A program made the position numbers and the translations under genes. A DNA stretch of 64,000 bases, taken from assembly GCA_028281265.1 (NCBI GenBank), contig JANQKE010000211.1, positions 1 to 64,000 of the forward strand, given 5' to 3'. The notes under the pieces were generated by a model. That model was not told the DNA's origin. It saw only the letters and a program-made list of their open reading frames with translations, and searched no databases. The stretch is from Alphaproteobacteria bacterium. GTDB taxonomy: Bacteria > Pseudomonadota > Alphaproteobacteria > DSM-16000 > Inquilinaceae. Shown here one piece after another: positions 9,893 through 62,093 of the stretch (the stretch's first letter is position 1; the number at the start of each line of letters is the position of its first letter).

Positions 9893-10315
9893 GTGGCTTT
9901 GCGATTGCGGCTCCGGCCGGGCGAACGGTTGGCGATCAACGGGGCGGTGGTTCGCAACGGCTCCAACCGGTCGGTGGAACTCGAGGTGCTCAACACCGCG
10001 ATCCTGTTGCACGAGCGGGACATCATGCTGCCCGCTGAAGCCGATACGCCGCTCAAGGCCGTGTATCTGGCGATCCAGTTGATGCATCTGGAGCCCGATC
10101 AGTTCCAGCAGCACCATTCCCAGTTCATCAAGACCAGTTCCCTGACCTACGCCCGGGCGCTGCAGGACGGCGAGCACGCGATCTGCACTCTGGTGACCGA
10201 GCTCGTGGCCCTGGTGGGCGAGCGGAACTTCGTGCCGGCGCTGAAGAAGCTGCAGAAGGTGATCGGCCGGCCCAGGACCTCCCGGGAGGTCGTCGACGAC
10301 GAAACGGAACGGTGA
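9893..10315 (+). CDS. flbT: Flagellar biosynthesis repressor FlbT
   Basis: FlbT is a post-transcriptional regulator. In Caulobacter it binds the 5' untranslated region of flagellin mRNA and promotes its decay until the hook is complete. The 140-residue product shows family features: LRPGERLAINGAVVRNG near the start, LHERDIMLP in the middle, and LDALV-like helices (AICTLVTELVALVGERNF). The start codon is GTG at 9893, preceded by a G-rich site. Usually flaF lies next to flbT; here flaF is about 6.7 kb away, beyond flagellin. Confidence 0.92.
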   Translation: MALRLRLRPGERLAINGAVVRNGSNRSVELEVLNTAILLHERDIMLPAEADTPLKAVYLAIQLMHLEPDQFQQHHSQFIKTSSLTYARALQDGEHAICTLVTELVALVGERNFVPALKKLQKVIGRPRTSREVVDDETER

Positions 10316-10509
10316 CGTCTTGGGGGGGAAGGCGTCGGATGCGGGTGCTCGCGCCGCCGATATGCGGACGGCCGTGCCGGATTTGTAGAGTGATTGTTGG
10401 GTAGCAAGTGGTTGTCGGGTATCATGTGTAGGGGATGGACGTTTGCGTTAATTATTCGTGCACGTCCTGGTTGTACTCTGAGGTCGTGACGATCGCAGGG
10501 GGCTGGAAA

Positions 10510-11991
10510 ATGCCGACACCGCACTTGGAACCCGTCGTGATGCCGCGTCCGGCGGCGCCCGATTGCTACTCGGCCATCATCGCCGACCATGTCGTCGATG
10601 CCATCGTGATCACCGGCGTCGATGGTCTGGTGGAATGGGCCAATCCGGCGTTCACCACGCTGACCGGCTACACGATGTCGGAAGCCGCGGGTCGCAAGCC
10701 GGGCGATCTTCTGCAGGGCCAGGACACCGACGGGGAGGAGGTTCGGCGTATCTCCGCCGCCTTGCGGGACCGGCGGCGTATCCGGAGCGAGATACTGAAC
10801 TACACCAAGGCGGGCGCGGCGTACTGGGTGGAGTTGAACATAGCGCCGGTGTTCGACGCCCAGGGCGTCCACACCCATTTCATTTCCGTCGAGCGGGACG
10901 TGACCGAGCGCATGTCCCTGCAGCGGGACATGCAGCGCGCCCTGGACGCCGAGCAGAGGCGGAAGGAGGAACGGCGGCTGCTGTTCGAGACCACCGAGTG
11001 GCTCTACACCGCCGAATCGCAGGAGGAGCTGCTCTCCGTCATCGGCCGGTGCATGCGGCTGCTCATCCCCGAGGCGGACGGGCAGCTCTTCCTCTACAGC
11101 AACTCGCGCGACGCCCTGGTGCTGGCCACCACCTGGGGCGATCGGGCGGCGCCCGATCACATCGAGCCGTCCGACTGCTGGTCGCTGCGCAAGGGCCGGG
11201 CCTATGGCTACGGCACGAACCTGGTCGACTTTCCCTGCAACCATGTCGGGGAAACCCAGCCTCAGCCCTATCTGTGCATTCCGATCACCGCCAGCGGGGA
11301 CACCATAGGGCTGGTCCATCTGGGCTTCCGCCGTCCGGCGGCCGACCGGGCCGGGGGCTGCGACCTGCGCGCCGTGCTCGACGCCCGGCGGGAGCTTGCC
11401 CTGCTGTGCGCCGAGCAGATCAGCCTTGCGTTGGCCAATGCCCGGTTGCGCGATCAGCTCCGCGATCAGTCGGTGCGGGACCCGCTGACGGGTCTGATGA
11501 ACCGGCGCTGGTTCCTGGACGCGATGCGCAAGGAGATCGCCCGCAGTGCGATGGCCGACCGGCCGATGTCGCTGATCTCGATCGACGTCGACCATTTCAA
11601 GCAGTTCAACGACAACCATGGCCATGACGCCGGCGACACCGTCTTGCGGGAGGTCGGCCGCGCGATGGCCGACTTCTTCACCGGCGGTCTGTTCCCATGC
11701 CGGATCGGCGGCGAGGAGTTCGTGGTTCTGGCACCGGACACCGATCGCGAGCGGGCCTTCCAGCGTGCCGACGGGTTTCGGGCCATCGTCGCGGAGATGA
11801 CCATCCGCTATCTCGGCGACATGCTGCCCCGGACGACGCTGTCGGCCGGCGTCGCGGCGTTTCCGGCCGACGCCACCACCTCCCAGGCGCTCATGACCCA
11901 AGCCGACAACGCCCTGTATGCCGCCAAGCGGGGCGGGCGGAACCGGGTTCACCGCGTCGACGATGTGGAGACCGGTCGCAAGGACGGCTGA
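10510..11991 (+). CDS. PAS-GAF-like-GGDEF diguanylate cyclase
   Basis: This is a predicted soluble enzyme making cyclic di-GMP from two GTP. A PAS domain (about residues 20-130) begins near SAIIADHVVDAIVITG and contains WANPAFTTLTGYT and a PAC-like VERDVTER. A GAF-like sensor follows (about 150-310). The C-terminal GGDEF domain (about 330-480) has DPLTGLMNRRWF and the active-site loop IGGEEFV. No RxxD inhibitory site is seen five residues before GGEEF, so product inhibition through the I-site is unlikely. No EAL domain is present. I prefer ATG 10510 (CAGGGGGCTGG upstream) over 10435. It may set motility within the flagellar island. Confidence 0.88.
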   Translation: MPTPHLEPVVMPRPAAPDCYSAIIADHVVDAIVITGVDGLVEWANPAFTTLTGYTMSEAAGRKPGDLLQGQDTDGEEVRRISAALRDRRRIRSEILNYTKAGAAYWVELNIAPVFDAQGVHTHFISVERDVTERMSLQRDMQRALDAEQRRKEERRLLFETTEWLYTAESQEELLSVIGRCMRLLIPEADGQLFLYSNSRDALVLATTWGDRAAPDHIEPSDCWSLRKGRAYGYGTNLVDFPCNHVGETQPQPYLCIPITASGDTIGLVHLGFRRPAADRAGGCDLRAVLDARRELALLCAEQISLALANARLRDQLRDQSVRDPLTGLMNRRWFLDAMRKEIARSAMADRPMSLISIDVDHFKQFNDNHGHDAGDTVLREVGRAMADFFTGGLFPCRIGGEEFVVLAPDTDRERAFQRADGFRAIVAEMTIRYLGDMLPRTTLSAGVAAFPADATTSQALMTQADNALYAAKRGGRNRVHRVDDVETGRKDG

Positions 11992-12112: not shown

Positions 12113-13750
12113 GTGGCGGAGAGGCAGACGGTGGACTCCGTGCGCGCACGGGCGGCGGCGTTTCTGGCCCGGGGGGATACCTCTGCGGCGAAGTCGGTCT
12201 ATGCCCGCATCCTGCAGCAGCTCCCGCACGACACCGGGGCCCGCGCGGGACTGCGCGCCGCCGTGCAACGGGAACGGCCGGGCGATCCCGCCTTGCTCGT
12301 CGCCCGGACCCTCGACGCCCTGAAGACGGTGCCGGGCCTCGATTGCAACGCCGCCCTGGGCTGGCAGTACACCGATCAGCTCGAAGCCGCGTTCGTCGAT
12401 CCCAGCCTGGTGACCGATCCCCCGGTTTCCCGTGGACCGCGGCCGGGGATCGGCGGCGACGGACCGGCCGCCCTGCCGCCGGGATCGCCGCCGGCCGACA
12501 TCCTGCGCCGGCTGGCCCGGATCGACGACCTGTCCGAGCGCTGGCAGGCGCTCGTGCAGGTCGTCGGTACGCGCGACCGGACCCTGCTCGCGGACAGCTT
12601 CGACGGGGCGTCACGGCCCGAACGTGCCGAGCAGGCCGCCCGCGCACTGGCCGGCCCCGGTCTCACGGTGGTGGTGCTCGGCGCCGGCTGCGTCGGGCTG
12701 GCGCTGGCCAACGCCCTCAAGCTCGGCCTGGGCCGGAAGGTGGAGATCCTGGTCGTCGAGACCCGGGTCGAGACGTCCGGCATCAAGCGCCCCTACGACC
12801 GCGACTGGCTCACCCATGTGCGGACGCAAGGGTGGGATACCTTGTTCGATCCGGCGGTCGTCAGGCTTCTCAACGGGTTGGGCCGGGACGGCTTCATGGG
12901 CGTCCCACTCAGCATGTTCGAGACGCTGCTGTTCCTTTCCTGCCGGCAGAAGGGAGTCCGGTTCCTGTTCGAGGCCGCACCCGATCCGGCGTTGATCGCC
13001 GGGTCGGCAGCCCATCTGGTGGTCGACGCCACCGGCGGGCGGCTGGCCGTCCAGGCCGACCCGCTGCCCGCCGACCCGCCCGCGGTGCCGGTGGGTCCCG
13101 TGCCCGGTTACGGGCGGGGCCACGCCACCCACGGCATCACCGATACCCGCGACGCGCCGGCACGGACGTTCCCGCTAGCCGCGTTCGGGCCGGCCTATCG
13201 TCCGCTGGCGGGATCCGGGCCGATGGCGGTGGGCATGACCAAGCTGACGGGGCTTCCGATCGACCTCTACGAGATGCTGCTGCCGCTGGTCCGGCGGGAC
13301 AACGCGGACGGCCATCTCTATCTCTGGCCGGGAACCCTGCGGGCGCGGATCAATCGGGCGCTGGCGTTCGCCTGCCTCCGGCGCCCCGCCTTCGAGGCGC
13401 TGGCCGAGCGGGTGCCGTCGCCCATGCCGGTGGCGCGGTTCCTGGCCGAGGGCGGCCATCGTATCCCCGCGCTCGATCGCCGCTTCGTGACCCTGCTGGA
13501 GGCGATCGAGCGGCGGGCCGGGGCCGATGCGTCCATCCGGATCGAGCCGCCCTTCGTGTTCGCACCCCGCTACCGGCCGATCGATCTTGCGACCGGCACC
13601 TATCGCGGCAAGCCGCTGCTGCCCCTGGGGGACAGCCTGTACACCGGCAATCCCAAGGTCGGCAACGGCCTGGCCGGCCATCTCAACCTCGTCCGCACCG
13701 TCCACGATCTGCTGCTGGTCTCCCACGTCCCGGACCGGGCGGCGGCGTGA
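12113..13750 (+). CDS. FAD/NAD-binding oxidoreductase-like protein of unknown function
   Basis: I cannot name this 545-residue protein. Residues about 1-60 form short TPR-like helices (ARAAAFLARGDTSAAKSVYA). Near 175-205 is a Rossmann dinucleotide-binding start, VVVLGAGCVGLALANALKLG, followed by an acidic strand end (VVETRVE). Near 310-320 is HLVVDATGGRL, like the second nucleotide motif of flavin monooxygenases. The C-terminus has LPLGDSLYTGNPKVGNGLAG, resembling the GD...GNG segment that contacts FAD in the p-hydroxybenzoate hydroxylase fold. The start GTG 12113 follows GGGAGGG; TTG 12083 is possible. Its place just before flagellin suggests filament modification, which is inference. Confidence 0.7.
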   Translation: MAERQTVDSVRARAAAFLARGDTSAAKSVYARILQQLPHDTGARAGLRAAVQRERPGDPALLVARTLDALKTVPGLDCNAALGWQYTDQLEAAFVDPSLVTDPPVSRGPRPGIGGDGPAALPPGSPPADILRRLARIDDLSERWQALVQVVGTRDRTLLADSFDGASRPERAEQAARALAGPGLTVVVLGAGCVGLALANALKLGLGRKVEILVVETRVETSGIKRPYDRDWLTHVRTQGWDTLFDPAVVRLLNGLGRDGFMGVPLSMFETLLFLSCRQKGVRFLFEAAPDPALIAGSAAHLVVDATGGRLAVQADPLPADPPAVPVGPVPGYGRGHATHGITDTRDAPARTFPLAAFGPAYRPLAGSGPMAVGMTKLTGLPIDLYEMLLPLVRRDNADGHLYLWPGTLRARINRALAFACLRRPAFEALAERVPSPMPVARFLAEGGHRIPALDRRFVTLLEAIERRAGADASIRIEPPFVFAPRYRPIDLATGTYRGKPLLPLGDSLYTGNPKVGNGLAGHLNLVRTVHDLLLVSHVPDRAAA

Positions 13751-13777
13751 ACGCCCGCCCATCATCGTGTCCGTCGC

Positions 13778-13882
13778 CTAGAGAGCATCCTGCGTCCTAA
13801 CGGACGCAGGATGCTCTAAATATTTGAAATAGATCAACTTATCTGCGTTCAGATGAGTCCATCTGAACGCAGGTTGATCTAG
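13778..13882 (+). repeat. Mosaic palindromic element A (alpha-beta)
   Basis: The element starts and ends with CTAG (13778-13781 and 13879-13882). Alpha is a perfect 16-bp stem (AGAGCATCCTGCGTCC and its complement, 13782-13817) with loop TAAC. A spacer AAATATTTGAAAT leads to beta (13831-13880): AGATCAAC, a TTAT bulge, then CTGCGTTCAGAT pairing with 13861-13880 across loop GAGTCC. It lies between the FAD-like gene and flagellin. It is almost identical to element I at 61991-62093. There is no T-run, so it is not a classic terminator. Confidence 0.9.
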
Positions 13883-13891
13883 TCGGCCGCA

Positions 13892-13920
13892 TTAAGCATT
13901 CGTTCATACCCGCTCCGATA
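13892..13920 (+). promoter_or_regulatory. Weak candidate sigma-28 promoter of flagellin
   Basis: TTAAG near 13892 and CTCCGATA at 13913-13920 resemble TAAA and GCCGATAA of FliA-type promoters, but the spacing is about 2 nt longer than consensus. I found no GG-N10-GC site in this interval. The -10-like part is the better half of the match. Confidence 0.25.
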
Positions 13921-13947
13921 GGGTGGCGTCGTCGGCAAAGCCGGCGG

Positions 13948-13983
13948 GCCGCAAAAGCGGCTGACACCCACCCGAAAATTCGG
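13948..13983 (+). promoter_or_regulatory. Flagellin 5' leader hairpins overlapping the ribosome site
   Basis: Two small hairpins lie just before the flagellin gene: GCCGC-AAAA-GCGGC (13948-13961) and CCGAA-AA-TTCGG (13972-13983). The second overlaps the first bases of the Shine-Dalgarno GGAG (13982-13985; ATG at 13994). FlbT is known in Caulobacter to act on the flagellin leader, so this is a plausible target. The link is inferred. Confidence 0.45.
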
Positions 13984-13993
13984 AGCCAGACAA

Positions 13994-15169
13994 ATGTCTT
14001 TTTCGGTTAACACCAACAACAACGCGATGACCGCGATCCGGCTGTTGAACTCCACCAACAGCATGCTGTCGACCACGCAAGAGCGGATCAACTCCGGCTT
14101 CGCGGTCGGCGGTGCTAAGGACGACGCGTCGACCTTCACCATCGCCCAGGGCATGCGCGGCGACGTCGCCGGCTTCAAGGCGATCAACGACAGCCTGGGT
14201 TTCGGCGAAGCCACCGTGAACGTGGCGCTTTCGGCGGCGGAGACGATCTCCAACCGGCTGAACGACATGAAGTCCAAGATCGTGCAGGCCCAGGAGTCCT
14301 CGGTCGACCGGGACGCGATCCAGCGGGATATCACCGCGCTGACCCAGCAGATCGACAGCATCGCCAGCGCCGCGCAGTTCAACGGCGTGAACCTGATCGA
14401 AAACACCGGCACCACCGACCTCAAGGTTCTGTCGTCGCTCAACCGGACCTCGCCGAGTGCCGCGCCGACGCCGACCTACATCACCGTCGTCGACGAGGAT
14501 CTTTCGGCCGCCGGCCTGGGCGTCAACGGTGTCGACGTCACCAACAAGACGGTCGAGTTGAAGTTCGACAACACCCTGAAGTTCGCCGACGCCAAGCTTC
14601 TGAACTTCACCGTGAACGTCGCCGGGGGCGGTACCAAGACGCTGACGTTCGAATTCGTCGACGATCTGGCCGCCGACACGCTGACGCACGCCGACCACAT
14701 CGCCGTCCAGTATGACGGCGCGCTCTCGGCCAACGAGAACCTGGCGGCGCTCGTCACCAAGATGAACGAGGAAGGCCTGACCGCCAGCTTCGGCACCGGC
14801 GGTAACATCGAGGTCAGTGCCGCTCTCGGGATGGGCGGTAACGCCACCTCTACGTTGACGGGCTTCGTTTCCGGTACCGCGGCCGGGGGCGATCCGTCCG
14901 CAGCGCTGACGACGATCGAGAATGCGATCACGTCGGCCAACCAGGCGCTCTCCCGCCTGGGAACCTCGGCCAACCAGCTCGAGACCCAGAAGGAGTTCGT
15001 CAAGTCGCTGACCGACAGCCTGACATCGGGCATCGGCCAACTGGTCGACGCCGATATGGCCGAGGAAAGCGCCAAGCTGCAGGCCCTGCAGACCCGGCAG
15101 CAGTTGGGTATCCAGGCCCTGTCCATCGCCAACCAGCAGCCGGGCTCCGTCCTGTCGCTGTTCCGGTAA
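13994..15169 (+). CDS. fliC: Flagellin
   Basis: Flagellin is the filament subunit. The 391-residue product has the conserved N-terminal D0/D1 region (about 1-140): SVNTNNNAMTAIRLLNSTNS, then INSGFAVGGAKDDAS and AQFNGVNLIE. A variable centre (about 150-300) follows, then the C-terminal D1/D0 helices with QALSRLGTSANQLETQKEFV and QQLGIQALSIANQQPGSVLS, ending in LFR. The Shine-Dalgarno GGAG is 8 nt from the ATG. It is the only flagellin in the window, transcribed alone and followed by a strong terminator. Export needs the flagellar type III system encoded elsewhere. Confidence 0.97.
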   Translation: MSFSVNTNNNAMTAIRLLNSTNSMLSTTQERINSGFAVGGAKDDASTFTIAQGMRGDVAGFKAINDSLGFGEATVNVALSAAETISNRLNDMKSKIVQAQESSVDRDAIQRDITALTQQIDSIASAAQFNGVNLIENTGTTDLKVLSSLNRTSPSAAPTPTYITVVDEDLSAAGLGVNGVDVTNKTVELKFDNTLKFADAKLLNFTVNVAGGGTKTLTFEFVDDLAADTLTHADHIAVQYDGALSANENLAALVTKMNEEGLTASFGTGGNIEVSAALGMGGNATSTLTGFVSGTAAGGDPSAALTTIENAITSANQALSRLGTSANQLETQKEFVKSLTDSLTSGIGQLVDADMAEESAKLQALQTRQQLGIQALSIANQQPGSVLSLFR

Positions 15170-15201
15170 GCGAAAACGTCGGTTCCTTAGGTGCGTTGTT
15201 C

Positions 15202-15235
15202 GGGCCGGCGGCTTCCTCCCGCCGGCCCGTTTTCT
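15202..15235 (+). terminator. Rho-independent terminator of flagellin
   Basis: GGGCCGGCGG (15202-15211) pairs perfectly with CCGCCGGCCC (15219-15228) and is followed by GTTTTC. It starts about 33 bp after the flagellin stop and is the clearest intrinsic terminator in the window. Confidence 0.85.
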
Positions 15236-15386
15236 CGATGGCATGATCCGCACGGTGCGCCTGGTCGCTTCGGCAACCGGGCCTTTGGTACTTTAACGGT
15301 TGATTAGGGCTGTTGCCGCAAGATGCGGGTCGATCGGGGGTCCTTGACCGGGTCCCATCGCAGGCAGCAGCGGGTGCGACCGACCC

Positions 15387-16913
15387 ATGACCGTATCAGT
15401 AACGCCGACCGCCGGGTCGAACCGCAGAGCCCGCCGGGCCCAGCGCGGCACGGTCCAGGCGACGGCGCGCCGGCCGCGCTCAGCCTCGGCCGACATCGCG
15501 GCGATCCTCGCCCCGGTGCCGGCCCTGATCGCCTGTCGGCGACACGAAGCGGCGATCGAAGCGCTCAAGCACGCCTTGCTGCAGGAACCGAACAGCGCCG
15601 CCGCCCACATCCTGATGGCGGTCCTGTCGTACGAGATCAAGAACTACCGCCAGGCCAACGACCTCTACAACGCCGCCGGCAAGCTGGCGGGCGCCTCCGA
15701 CACCGGTGCCCTGCTGGTCCTGCGCGGGGATCTGCTGACCGCCTCCGGTCGACCGGACGAGGCCAAGAAGGCCTATCTCGCCTGCCTTGCCAAGCCGGCC
15801 GCCGGCACGCCGGTATGGGCCCAGGCGCGGGCGTTGTTCCGCTTGGGCCAGGCGGACCTGGCCGACGGCAGCGACGCCGCCGCGCAAGCCCTGCTGGACA
15901 GGGCCCTGGCGCTGACGCCCGACGATCCCATGATACTGGCCGCCCAAGCGGTGACGCTGGAACGCCTCGGGGACCGGCTCGGCGCGATGCAGGCGTACAA
16001 GCGCGCCACCGAACGCGCTCCCGACGACGCCGGTCTGTTCAACGATTTCGGTGGGCTCCTGGTGCGGATGAAGCGGCTCGACGAAGGCTTGGCCGCCTAT
16101 CGGATCGCCGGGCGGCTGCGCCCCGACAACACCATCGTCCAGAACAACATCGCCAACACCTACTTCCAGATGCAACGGCACGACGAGGCGCTGACGGCGT
16201 TCGAACGGGTGCTCGCGCTCGATCCGGCCGACGACTACGCCCGCCATATGGCCTCGTCTCTGCGGGGCGACGCGGCGCCGGAGCGGGCCTCCGACGGCTA
16301 TGTGAAGACGACCTTCGACCAGTTCGCCGCCACCTTCGAGGACAAGCTGTCGACCCTCGGCTATTCGGGGCCGGAGAAGATCGAACGCGCCCTGGCCGAC
16401 CTTATCGGCCCCGGCGACGGCGACCTGGCCGTCCTGGACGGCGGCTGCGGGACCGGCTGGTGCGGGCCGTTCCTGCGGCGCTACGCTGGGCACCTGGATG
16501 GTGTCGACCTGTCCTCCGGGATGCTGGAGAAAGCCCGCCGCCGTGACGTGTACGACGACCTGGTCGAAAGCGAGCTGACCGGGTTCCTGCTGCAGCGCCC
16601 CGGTACCTACGACCTGATCGTCGACGCCGATGTGCTGTGCTACTTCGGCGCCCTGGAGGAGGTGATGACGGCCTCCGCCGTCGCGCTGATCCCCGGCGGC
16701 CATCTGGTCTTCACCGTGGAGCGCTGGGACGGGGAGGAGGACTTCCACCTCAACCCCCACGGCCGGTACAGCCATGCCGAGGCCTATATCAGGCGGCTGC
16801 TCGCCGACAACGGCCTCACCCCGGTCAAGATGGAAGATATCCAGTTGCGCACCGAGGCCGGAAAACCGGTCATGGCGCTGCTGGTCTGTGCCCAGCTCGA
16901 TGAAATCGGGTGA
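15387..16913 (+). CDS. TPR-repeat SAM-dependent methyltransferase
   Basis: The 508-residue product has about seven TPR-type helical pairs (about residues 45-295), including HEAAIEALKHALLQEPNSAA, DEGLAAYRIAGRLRPDNTI and DEALTAFERVLALDPADDYA. A class I methyltransferase domain follows (about 300-505). Its SAM-binding motif I reads VLDGGCGTGWCGPFL, followed by HLDGVDLSSGMLEKAR. The acceptor cannot be read from sequence. TPRs commonly bind protein partners. The gene sits between flagellin and flaF, so flagellin or another flagellar protein is a reasonable but unproven substrate. It lies downstream of the flagellin terminator, so it probably has its own promoter. Confidence 0.82.
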   Translation: MTVSVTPTAGSNRRARRAQRGTVQATARRPRSASADIAAILAPVPALIACRRHEAAIEALKHALLQEPNSAAAHILMAVLSYEIKNYRQANDLYNAAGKLAGASDTGALLVLRGDLLTASGRPDEAKKAYLACLAKPAAGTPVWAQARALFRLGQADLADGSDAAAQALLDRALALTPDDPMILAAQAVTLERLGDRLGAMQAYKRATERAPDDAGLFNDFGGLLVRMKRLDEGLAAYRIAGRLRPDNTIVQNNIANTYFQMQRHDEALTAFERVLALDPADDYARHMASSLRGDAAPERASDGYVKTTFDQFAATFEDKLSTLGYSGPEKIERALADLIGPGDGDLAVLDGGCGTGWCGPFLRRYAGHLDGVDLSSGMLEKARRRDVYDDLVESELTGFLLQRPGTYDLIVDADVLCYFGALEEVMTASAVALIPGGHLVFTVERWDGEEDFHLNPHGRYSHAEAYIRRLLADNGLTPVKMEDIQLRTEAGKPVMALLVCAQLDEIG

Positions 16914-17044: not shown

Positions 17045-17470
17045 ATGTCGATCAAATCCTATCAGCGTGCACAGCAGTCCTCGGAATCGCCGCGCAGCAC
17101 CGAATACCGCGCGATGGCGATGATCACCTCGAAGCTGATGGACGGCCGCGACAAGGCCCGGTCCACCAAGGACCGCAAGGCCCTGATCGAGGCCTGCTTC
17201 CTGAACCAGAAGCTGTGGACGATCTTCGCTGCGGACCTGGCGATGCCGGACAACCGGTTGCCCGACGAGACCAAGGCGAGCCTGATCAGCCTGTCGATCT
17301 GGGTACAGAAGACCACACCCAAGGTGATGCGGGGGGAGGTCGATGCCGACACGCTGATCGACGTCAACCGCAGCATCATGGAAGGGTTGAGCACCAATCC
17401 CGCCGCCGTCCAGGCCGTCTCCCGGCCGGTCGCATCGCCCGTGTCCGAGCCGATTGCCAGCACCGTTTGA
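17045..17470 (+). CDS. flaF: Flagellar biosynthesis regulator FlaF
   Basis: FlaF is a small helical protein needed for flagellin production in alphaproteobacteria, where it works with FlbT and may act as a flagellin secretion chaperone. The 141-residue product begins MSIKSYQRAQQ and contains the family stretches LIEACFLNQKLWTIFAADL and LPDETKASLISLSIWVQKTT. The frame is open upstream to 16910, but ATG 17045 has GAAGGA at proper distance and gives the family-typical start. It closes the flagellar island, 131 bp after the methyltransferase. Confidence 0.93.
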   Translation: MSIKSYQRAQQSSESPRSTEYRAMAMITSKLMDGRDKARSTKDRKALIEACFLNQKLWTIFAADLAMPDNRLPDETKASLISLSIWVQKTTPKVMRGEVDADTLIDVNRSIMEGLSTNPAAVQAVSRPVASPVSEPIASTV

Positions 17471-30511: not shown

Positions 30512-30617
30512 CAGATCAACCTGCATTCAGATCGGCTCGTCCGAATGCGGATAAGTTGATCGACTTCAAAGAGGGGGAGCCTCTTATCTGCGTCCGTTCG
30601 GACCCGGAGATGCTCTA
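30512..30617 (-). repeat. Mosaic palindromic element D (alpha-beta, minus orientation)
   Basis: Read on the minus strand: alpha with GGACGCAGATAAGAGG across loop GAAC, spacer CTCTTTGAAGTC, then beta GATCAACTTATCCGCATTCGGA, closing with TCTGAATGCAGGTTGATCT. In beta the central pairs are CATTC/GAATG where other copies have CGTTC/GAACG, a compensatory change. There is no CTAG at either end. It lies between nrdA and the divergent histidine kinase gene, where the rest of the interval 30214-30729 holds only the nrdA promoter. Confidence 0.82.
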
Positions 30618-56421: not shown

Positions 56422-56575
56422 AGAGCATCCTTGCGTCCGAACGGACGCAGATAGGATGCCCTCCCTCTTTGCAGTCGATCACCTTACCGGCGTTCAGATG
56501 AGGCCATCTGAACGCCGGTCGATCGAGAGCGAGAGGACATGAGGGTGCCTCACCCTCATGTCCGACTCTTGCTCT
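56418..56575 (+). repeat. Mosaic palindromic element G (alpha-beta-gamma)
   Basis: It starts at TTAG, whose TAG stops the binding-protein gene. Alpha: GAGCATCCTTGCGTCC, loop GAAC, GGACGCAGATAGGATGC (56422-56460). Spacer CTCCCTCTTTGCAGT leads to beta (56475-56525), where CCGGCGTTCAGAT pairs with ATCTGAACGCCGG, a compensated variant. Gamma (56526-56575) has GGACATGAGGGTG pairing with CACCCTCATGTCC. The ribosome site of the permease gene follows 47 bp later. Confidence 0.9.
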
Positions 56576-61990: not shown

Positions 61991-62093
61991 CTAGAGCATC
62001 CTGCGTCCTAACGGACGCAGGATGCTCTAAATCTTTGAAATAGATCACCTTATCTGCGTTCAGATGAGTCTGTCTGAGCGCAGGTTGATCTAG
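61991..62093 (+). repeat. Mosaic palindromic element I (alpha-beta)
   Basis: CTAG bounds both ends (61991-61994 and 62090-62093). Alpha has the same 16-bp stem and TAAC loop as copy A; the spacer is AAATCTTTGAAAT. Beta is AGATCACCTTATCTGCGTTCAG, loop GAGTCT, then GTCTGAGCGCAGGTTGATCT. Apart from two extra bases in A and a few substitutions it is the same as 13778-13882, about 48 kb away. Head-to-tail with element H it makes an inverted pair. Confidence 0.9.

Follow-up and report, generated by a model that had tools for sequence, protein, structure and literature searches.

Why should a flagellin gene be enclosed by two putative enzymes that each carry protein-binding repeats? This question is raised by a 64,000-nucleotide stretch of DNA from an alphaproteobacterium of the family Inquilinaceae (contig JANQKE010000211.1, positions 1 to 64,000; hereafter the window). 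The upstream gene, P1 (12113..13750, + strand), encodes 545 residues with predicted tetratricopeptide repeat (TPR)-like helices and a flavin adenine dinucleotide (FAD) monooxygenase fold, and the downstream gene, P2 (15387..16913, +), encodes a 508-residue TPR protein with a class I S-adenosylmethionine (SAM) methyltransferase domain. Between them lies the flagellin gene (13994..15169, +; 391 residues; Flagellin_N E 8e-26, Flagellin_C E 4e-18). We favor, at about an even chance, a reading in which P1 and P2 form a TPR-guided two-enzyme module for oxidation plus methylation, aimed at flagellin or its glycan at this locus and at other surface proteins elsewhere. Behind this reading stand the gene content, the predicted folds and the recurrence of both the pairing of P1 with a TPR-methyltransferase and the linkage to flagellin.

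Open reading frames and Pfam matches place the three genes in a plus-strand flagellar cluster with the order FlgK, FlgL, FlbT, PAS-GGDEF, P1, flagellin, P2, FlaF. P1 and P2 thus bracket flagellin, while FlbT (9893..10315, +; Pfam FlbT E 4e-26), a regulator of flagellin mRNA, and FlaF (17045..17470, +; Pfam FlaF E 7e-34), a flagellin export chaperone, lie outside them, one on each side. A PAS-GGDEF protein, a diguanylate cyclase (10435-11991, +), is encoded between flbT and P1.

By sequence, P1 is a member of no named family, since its Pfam matches are all sub-threshold (TPR_14 E 0.0015; Pyr_redox E 0.0067) and its NCBIfam matches are low-scoring and hydroxylase-like. Judged by composition and conservation it is a real gene, because its G+C content at third codon positions (0.89) resembles that of neighboring genes and it has conserved homologues in several phyla; these begin at about the same position as the GTG start at 12113. 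An AlphaFold2 model computed from an 11-sequence alignment (pLDDT 84.9, pTM 0.87) shows pairs of helices at the N-terminus, joined by a linker to an FAD-monooxygenase fold. Foldseek matched this model to class A FAD monooxygenases with a probability of 1.00, E values down to 1e-8 and TM-scores of about 0.3-0.46. The TPR-like helical region covers residues 7-90 (12131..12382, +) and is degenerate in P1, with clear TPRs in SAR116-type homologues (TPR_19 E 5e-12); the predicted monooxygenase domain covers residues 178-545 (12644..13747, +). Across the same alignment the family shares the motifs GxGxxG, R-x-W-L-T, DA(T)G, Y-x-W-x-G and GDSxxxGxPKxGNGL. The dinucleotide-binding motif of P1, GAGCVG (residues 190-195; 12680..12697, +), has glycines that are invariant in 11/11 homologues, as are R, W, L and T of the R-x-W-L-T motif (residues 230-234; 12800..12814, +). 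In DATGGR (residues 305-310; 13025..13042, +), D and A are invariant and T and G nearly so, and the order of the motifs makes it the likely counterpart of the class A DG motif. Finally, GDSLYTGNPKVGNGL (13628..13672, +), in which GDS, G, P and GNGL are invariant, aligns with the GD motif of HspB and corresponds to the FAD-binding GD motif. The GxGxxG motif at the N-terminus of the FAD domain, the GD motif and the predicted overall fold all agree with class A enzymes, and on the strength of the model P1 can safely be assigned the class A FAD monooxygenase fold.

Within class A, structural comparison suggested a specific relative and, with it, a different function. Compared with the PDB, the full P1 model matched MICAL monooxygenase domains in each of the top eight places (E 2e-7 to 5e-6), with VibMO1, vanillate hydroxylase, TetX2 and VioD ranking next. 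P1 might then be a MICAL-like oxidase that forms methionine sulfoxide on flagellin and tunes its polymerization as MICAL does that of actin, with P2 acting separately, and the flagellin between the two genes does contain 8 Met and neither Trp nor Cys. However, when the FAD domain was used alone, VibMO1 and VioD, both small-molecule hydroxylases, came first and MICAL sixth; the TM-scores are only 0.3-0.46, and no MICAL occurs among the PDB sequence matches listed for P1. Moreover, MICAL works on filaments that have already assembled, whereas flagellin is present in the cytoplasm only until it is exported. Pfam found no calponin-homology or LIM domain after the P1 monooxygenase domain, and P1 has TPR-like helices instead. 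We therefore rejected MICAL as the specific relative of P1, treat the structural likeness as a lead only, and regard a MICAL-type function as quite improbable. P1 shares the predicted overall fold, GxGxxG and a GD motif with the class A enzymes MICAL, VibMO1 and VioD, but differs from them in its own motifs (R-x-W-L-T and GDSxxxGxPKVGNGL), in its N-terminal TPR-like helices and in matching no Pfam family above cut-off. The best viral structural match of P1, a Tupanvirus ORFan (BFVD A0A6N1NWF8; E 2.7e-11, TM-score about 0.5), ranked above any PDB entry.

The assignment of P2 is more direct, with TPR (E 5e-22) and Methyltransf_11 (E 6e-10) matches that both exceed Pfam cut-offs and a methyltransferase domain at residues 330-477 (16374..16817, +; Methyltransf_11/23/25). 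An established enzyme with which P2 might be equated is FliB, the flagellin lysine methylase of Salmonella, which contains a 4Fe-4S cluster and carries the motif CX4CX3CC, related to PF03692 (PMC8598068). Like FliB, P2 would methylate flagellin, but its SAM-binding domain is of the classical Rossmann type and is joined to TPRs, with no PF03692 match and no Cys-rich 4Fe-4S motif, and its domains rule out that it is a FliB. In the first-pass annotation the two genes had been described as an unnamed protein with TPR-like helices and a flavin-monooxygenase-like fold and as a TPR-SAM methyltransferase. Both descriptions agree with the model, Foldseek and Pfam results, and the positions and lengths it gave for P1, flagellin and P2 are those of the open reading frames.

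To place P1 among its relatives required a profile. P1 alone as a query retrieved no relative from 84,980 species genomes. Three good homologues were present among 385 genomes of the class (in the genomes we label G232, G117 and G323, with 43%, 31% and 30% identity, respectively), and a profile built from these three identified nine loci, two of them on known contigs (L055 on that of G117 and L058 on that of G323). In all, 11 distinct members were found, that of the window included, in Alphaproteobacteria, Pseudomonadales, an Oleiphilus metagenome-assembled genome (MAG), a verrucomicrobium and a Gloeomargaritales cyanobacterium. Among 398 genomes drawn from the phylum only one, the window's own, had P1, and plasmids and viral contigs yielded no homologue. 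The family is rare and scattered.

P1 and P2-type enzymes belong together as a pair. G117 (MarineAlpha12; loci L044/L055) encodes a single 1064-residue protein (L044, 7879-11073) composed of TPRs, a P1-type FAD domain, further TPRs and a P2-type methyltransferase. In two other genomes, a SAR116 member (L056) and SCGC AAA015-N04 (L057), genes for a P1-like protein and a TPR-methyltransferase are adjacent. The partner methyltransferases of these four cases (the fusion, the two adjacent pairs and the window) are not one clade, as a tree forcing their monophyly was rejected (approximately unbiased test, p = 0.004). This rules out a single inherited P1-P2 operon and indicates that the pairing arose at least twice, and assembly on more than one occasion argues for joint function over inherited linkage. 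The pairing is not universal: the alphaproteobacterial P1 loci of G232 and G323 had no methyltransferase partner in the stretches read, and another P1 locus (L054), at a contig end, was excluded from this assessment. Beside the fusion, at 1326-7696 of L044, are genes for a TPR-2-oxoglutarate oxygenase and a 1411-residue TPR-methyltransferase-TPR protein, although no flagellin was detected in this genome. P1-type domains also occur in another kind of fusion: in a Pseudomonadales MAG (L059, 578-8952), a row of genes encodes an RTX S-layer-like protein, SapC, a methyltransferase with a regulatory domain and a protein in which the P1-type FAD domain is fused behind a GT4 glycosyltransferase.

Is flagellin the target? 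Support comes from L057, where the pair sits among three flagellin genes in the order TPR-sulfotransferase, flagellin, TPR-methyltransferase, P1, flagellin, small genes that by eye resemble fliS, and flagellin. A sulfotransferase is also present elsewhere in the window's genome. The flagellins of both SAR116-like genomes (L056 and L057) have further TPR-enzymes alongside. In a survey of the equivalent slot in relatives, covering ten flagellin/FlaF regions, a TPR-OGT (GT41) protein or GT41 domain lay beside flagellin in four (G017, G001, G003 and G018), while three more (G030, G020 and G010) had other TPR proteins there, to which no catalytic type was assigned; no TPR protein was recognized beside flagellin in the remaining G037, G008 and G013. 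These TPR-OGTs are TPR-enzyme fusions of the type that the first-pass annotation invoked as a precedent, and P1/P2 thus occupy what appears to be a slot of likely flagellin-modifying enzymes. The TPR-OGTs share with P1 and P2 this slot and the TPR-enzyme architecture, and differ in transferring sugar rather than oxidizing or methylating. In G003, which belongs to the same family as the window's genome, a TPR-OGT and a methyltransferase are adjacent near FlbT/FlaF and flagellin (L107, 1582-4829), an arrangement that parallels P1-P2.

Several findings weigh against a dedicated role in flagella. The linkage of P1-P2 to flagellin amounts to two independent loci, and TPR-enzymes are common around SAR116 flagellins, which makes adjacency there less surprising than elsewhere. 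Most P1 homologues are not next to flagellin. No flagellin (PF00669) was detected in four P1-bearing genomes, G117, G323, G417 (the Gloeomargaritales cyanobacterium) and G418 (Cerasicoccus); G232 has flagellins, with its P1 homologue located elsewhere; and in L059 the P1 fusion is three genes away from the S-layer-like protein, with SapC and the methyltransferase between. None of 16 same-family genomes searched contained P1, and the TPR match of P1 is itself under the Pfam cut-off. The P2 family is generic, as 25 other P2-like loci from relatives had no flagellin among the genes predicted in flanks of about 1.5 kb. From the flagellin-free genomes, the separate location in G232, the S-layer-like context of L059 and the P2-like flanks, we conclude that the P1 family as a whole is not flagellar or flagellin-specific. 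The proposal of a flagellin-modification pair accordingly stands in part: the pair is real and its flagellin link recurs in L057, but the expected conserved linkage to flagella failed for most P1 homologues, and the case for flagellin as the likely target at this locus comes from gene position, not family membership.

These same observations could mean that the association with flagellin is due to chance, P1 and P2 being accessory TPR-enzymes for other targets that were inserted near flagellin. The scattered and mostly non-flagellar P1 family and the generic P2 family fit such an origin, as do palindromic repeats in the gap between P1 and flagellin. We nevertheless consider it rather unlikely, since the same pair occurs among the flagellins of an independent genome, P1 and P2 flank flagellin inside the FlbT-FlaF interval, and relatives fill the slot with TPR-OGTs.

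A second alternative, to which we assign a minor though somewhat larger share of the probability, concerns the chemical nature of the target. P1 and P2 might oxidize and O-methylate a sugar donor or flagellin-linked glycan rather than the polypeptide, with a TPR-OGT elsewhere in the genome attaching the sugar. The TPR-OGTs in the equivalent slot of relatives, in G003 with a neighboring methyltransferase, and the fusion of one P1 homologue to a GT4 glycosyltransferase are consistent with this idea. So is the flagellin of Shewanella, modified through sfmABCDE, which carries an O-methylated glycan as well as methylated lysines (PMC3765264). This flagellin-modification cluster likewise includes a SAM methyltransferase; it is based on nonulosonic acid, and the text consulted mentions no flavin monooxygenase or TPR-flavoenzyme. 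Against the glycan alternative, a protein-bound target explains TPR-bearing enzymes more easily, no OGT is encoded in the window, the one part of the genome examined for it, and NeuB was not found in the window's genome, which makes the usual nonulosonic-acid decoration of flagellin unlikely.

Returning to the favored two-enzyme module, TPR docking, the order of the steps, the oxidizing chemistry and the substrate are what we infer. The TPR parts would dock a cytoplasmic substrate ahead of export; P1, as a class A FAD monooxygenase, would use FAD and NAD(P)H to oxidize or hydroxylate it; and P2 would methylate this substrate from SAM, perhaps at the very group that P1 had introduced. The substrate here would most likely be flagellin or a sugar on flagellin because P1 and P2 bracket flagellin within the FlbT-flagellin-FlaF locus, and elsewhere the same modules would be aimed at other, probably surface, proteins. 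Possible modification sites are Met, Tyr, Lys, Ser/Thr or a glycan, since both flagellins of this genome (391 residues each) lack Cys and Trp and have 2 Tyr and 8-9 Met. A close analogy is FlmG, a Caulobacter TPR-glycosyltransferase whose TPR domain interacts with flagellins in two-hybrid tests and is required for efficient modification (PMC7591256). Like FlmG, which is cytoplasmic and flagellin-directed, P1 and P2 would act on flagellin in the cytoplasm; they combine TPRs with a catalytic domain and are encoded beside flagellin, clearly so for P2 and with a degenerate TPR for P1. Unlike this glycosyltransferase, P1 has a predicted flavin monooxygenase fold and P2 is a methyltransferase, and NeuB was not found in the window's genome. 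A more specific version, which we put forward tentatively and hold to be somewhat doubtful, is that the TPR-steered pair first hydroxylates or oxidizes flagellin in the cytoplasm and then methylates it, all before export, as a two-step oxidative modification of a filament protein, and that fusion with TPR, methyltransferase or glycosyltransferase parts has redirected the flavin module between flagellin, S-layer-like proteins and further targets.

Other features of the locus were also recorded. The P1-flagellin gap contains a 16-bp perfect palindrome (13782..13817; no strand applies) and, separately, a dispersed palindrome, CTGCGTTCAGATG-N4-CATCTGAACGCAG, at 13843-13872, and 27-base stretches resembling the latter occur in the window at 30528-30554, 56484-56510 and 62050-62076. 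A terminator-like hairpin with a T run (15201..15229, +) follows flagellin. Upstream of P1, flagellin and P2, no convincing sigma-28- or sigma-54-like motif was found. The second flagellin of the genome, very similar to that of the window, lies on contig C222 (L046, 8842-10017, - strand) and adjoins cydAB-like oxidase genes; neither P1 nor P2 accompanies it.

Glycosylation and lysine methylation account for most known modifications of flagellin. In the open literature searched, neither a flavin monooxygenase with flagellin as its substrate nor flagellin oxidation was reported; the chemistry proposed for P1 and P2 is thus not described for flagella in that literature, though such absence is not proof of novelty. 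If our reading is correct, a TPR-guided flavin oxygenase working with a methyltransferase would extend the modifications of flagellin to oxidative chemistry, and P1 would define a family unrecognized by Pfam. The natural 1064-residue fusion offers a single-gene object for studying the joint chemistry. More broadly, the scattered occurrence and modular make-up of the family suggest that docking through TPRs is a general means of directing interchangeable enzymes to surface proteins destined for export.

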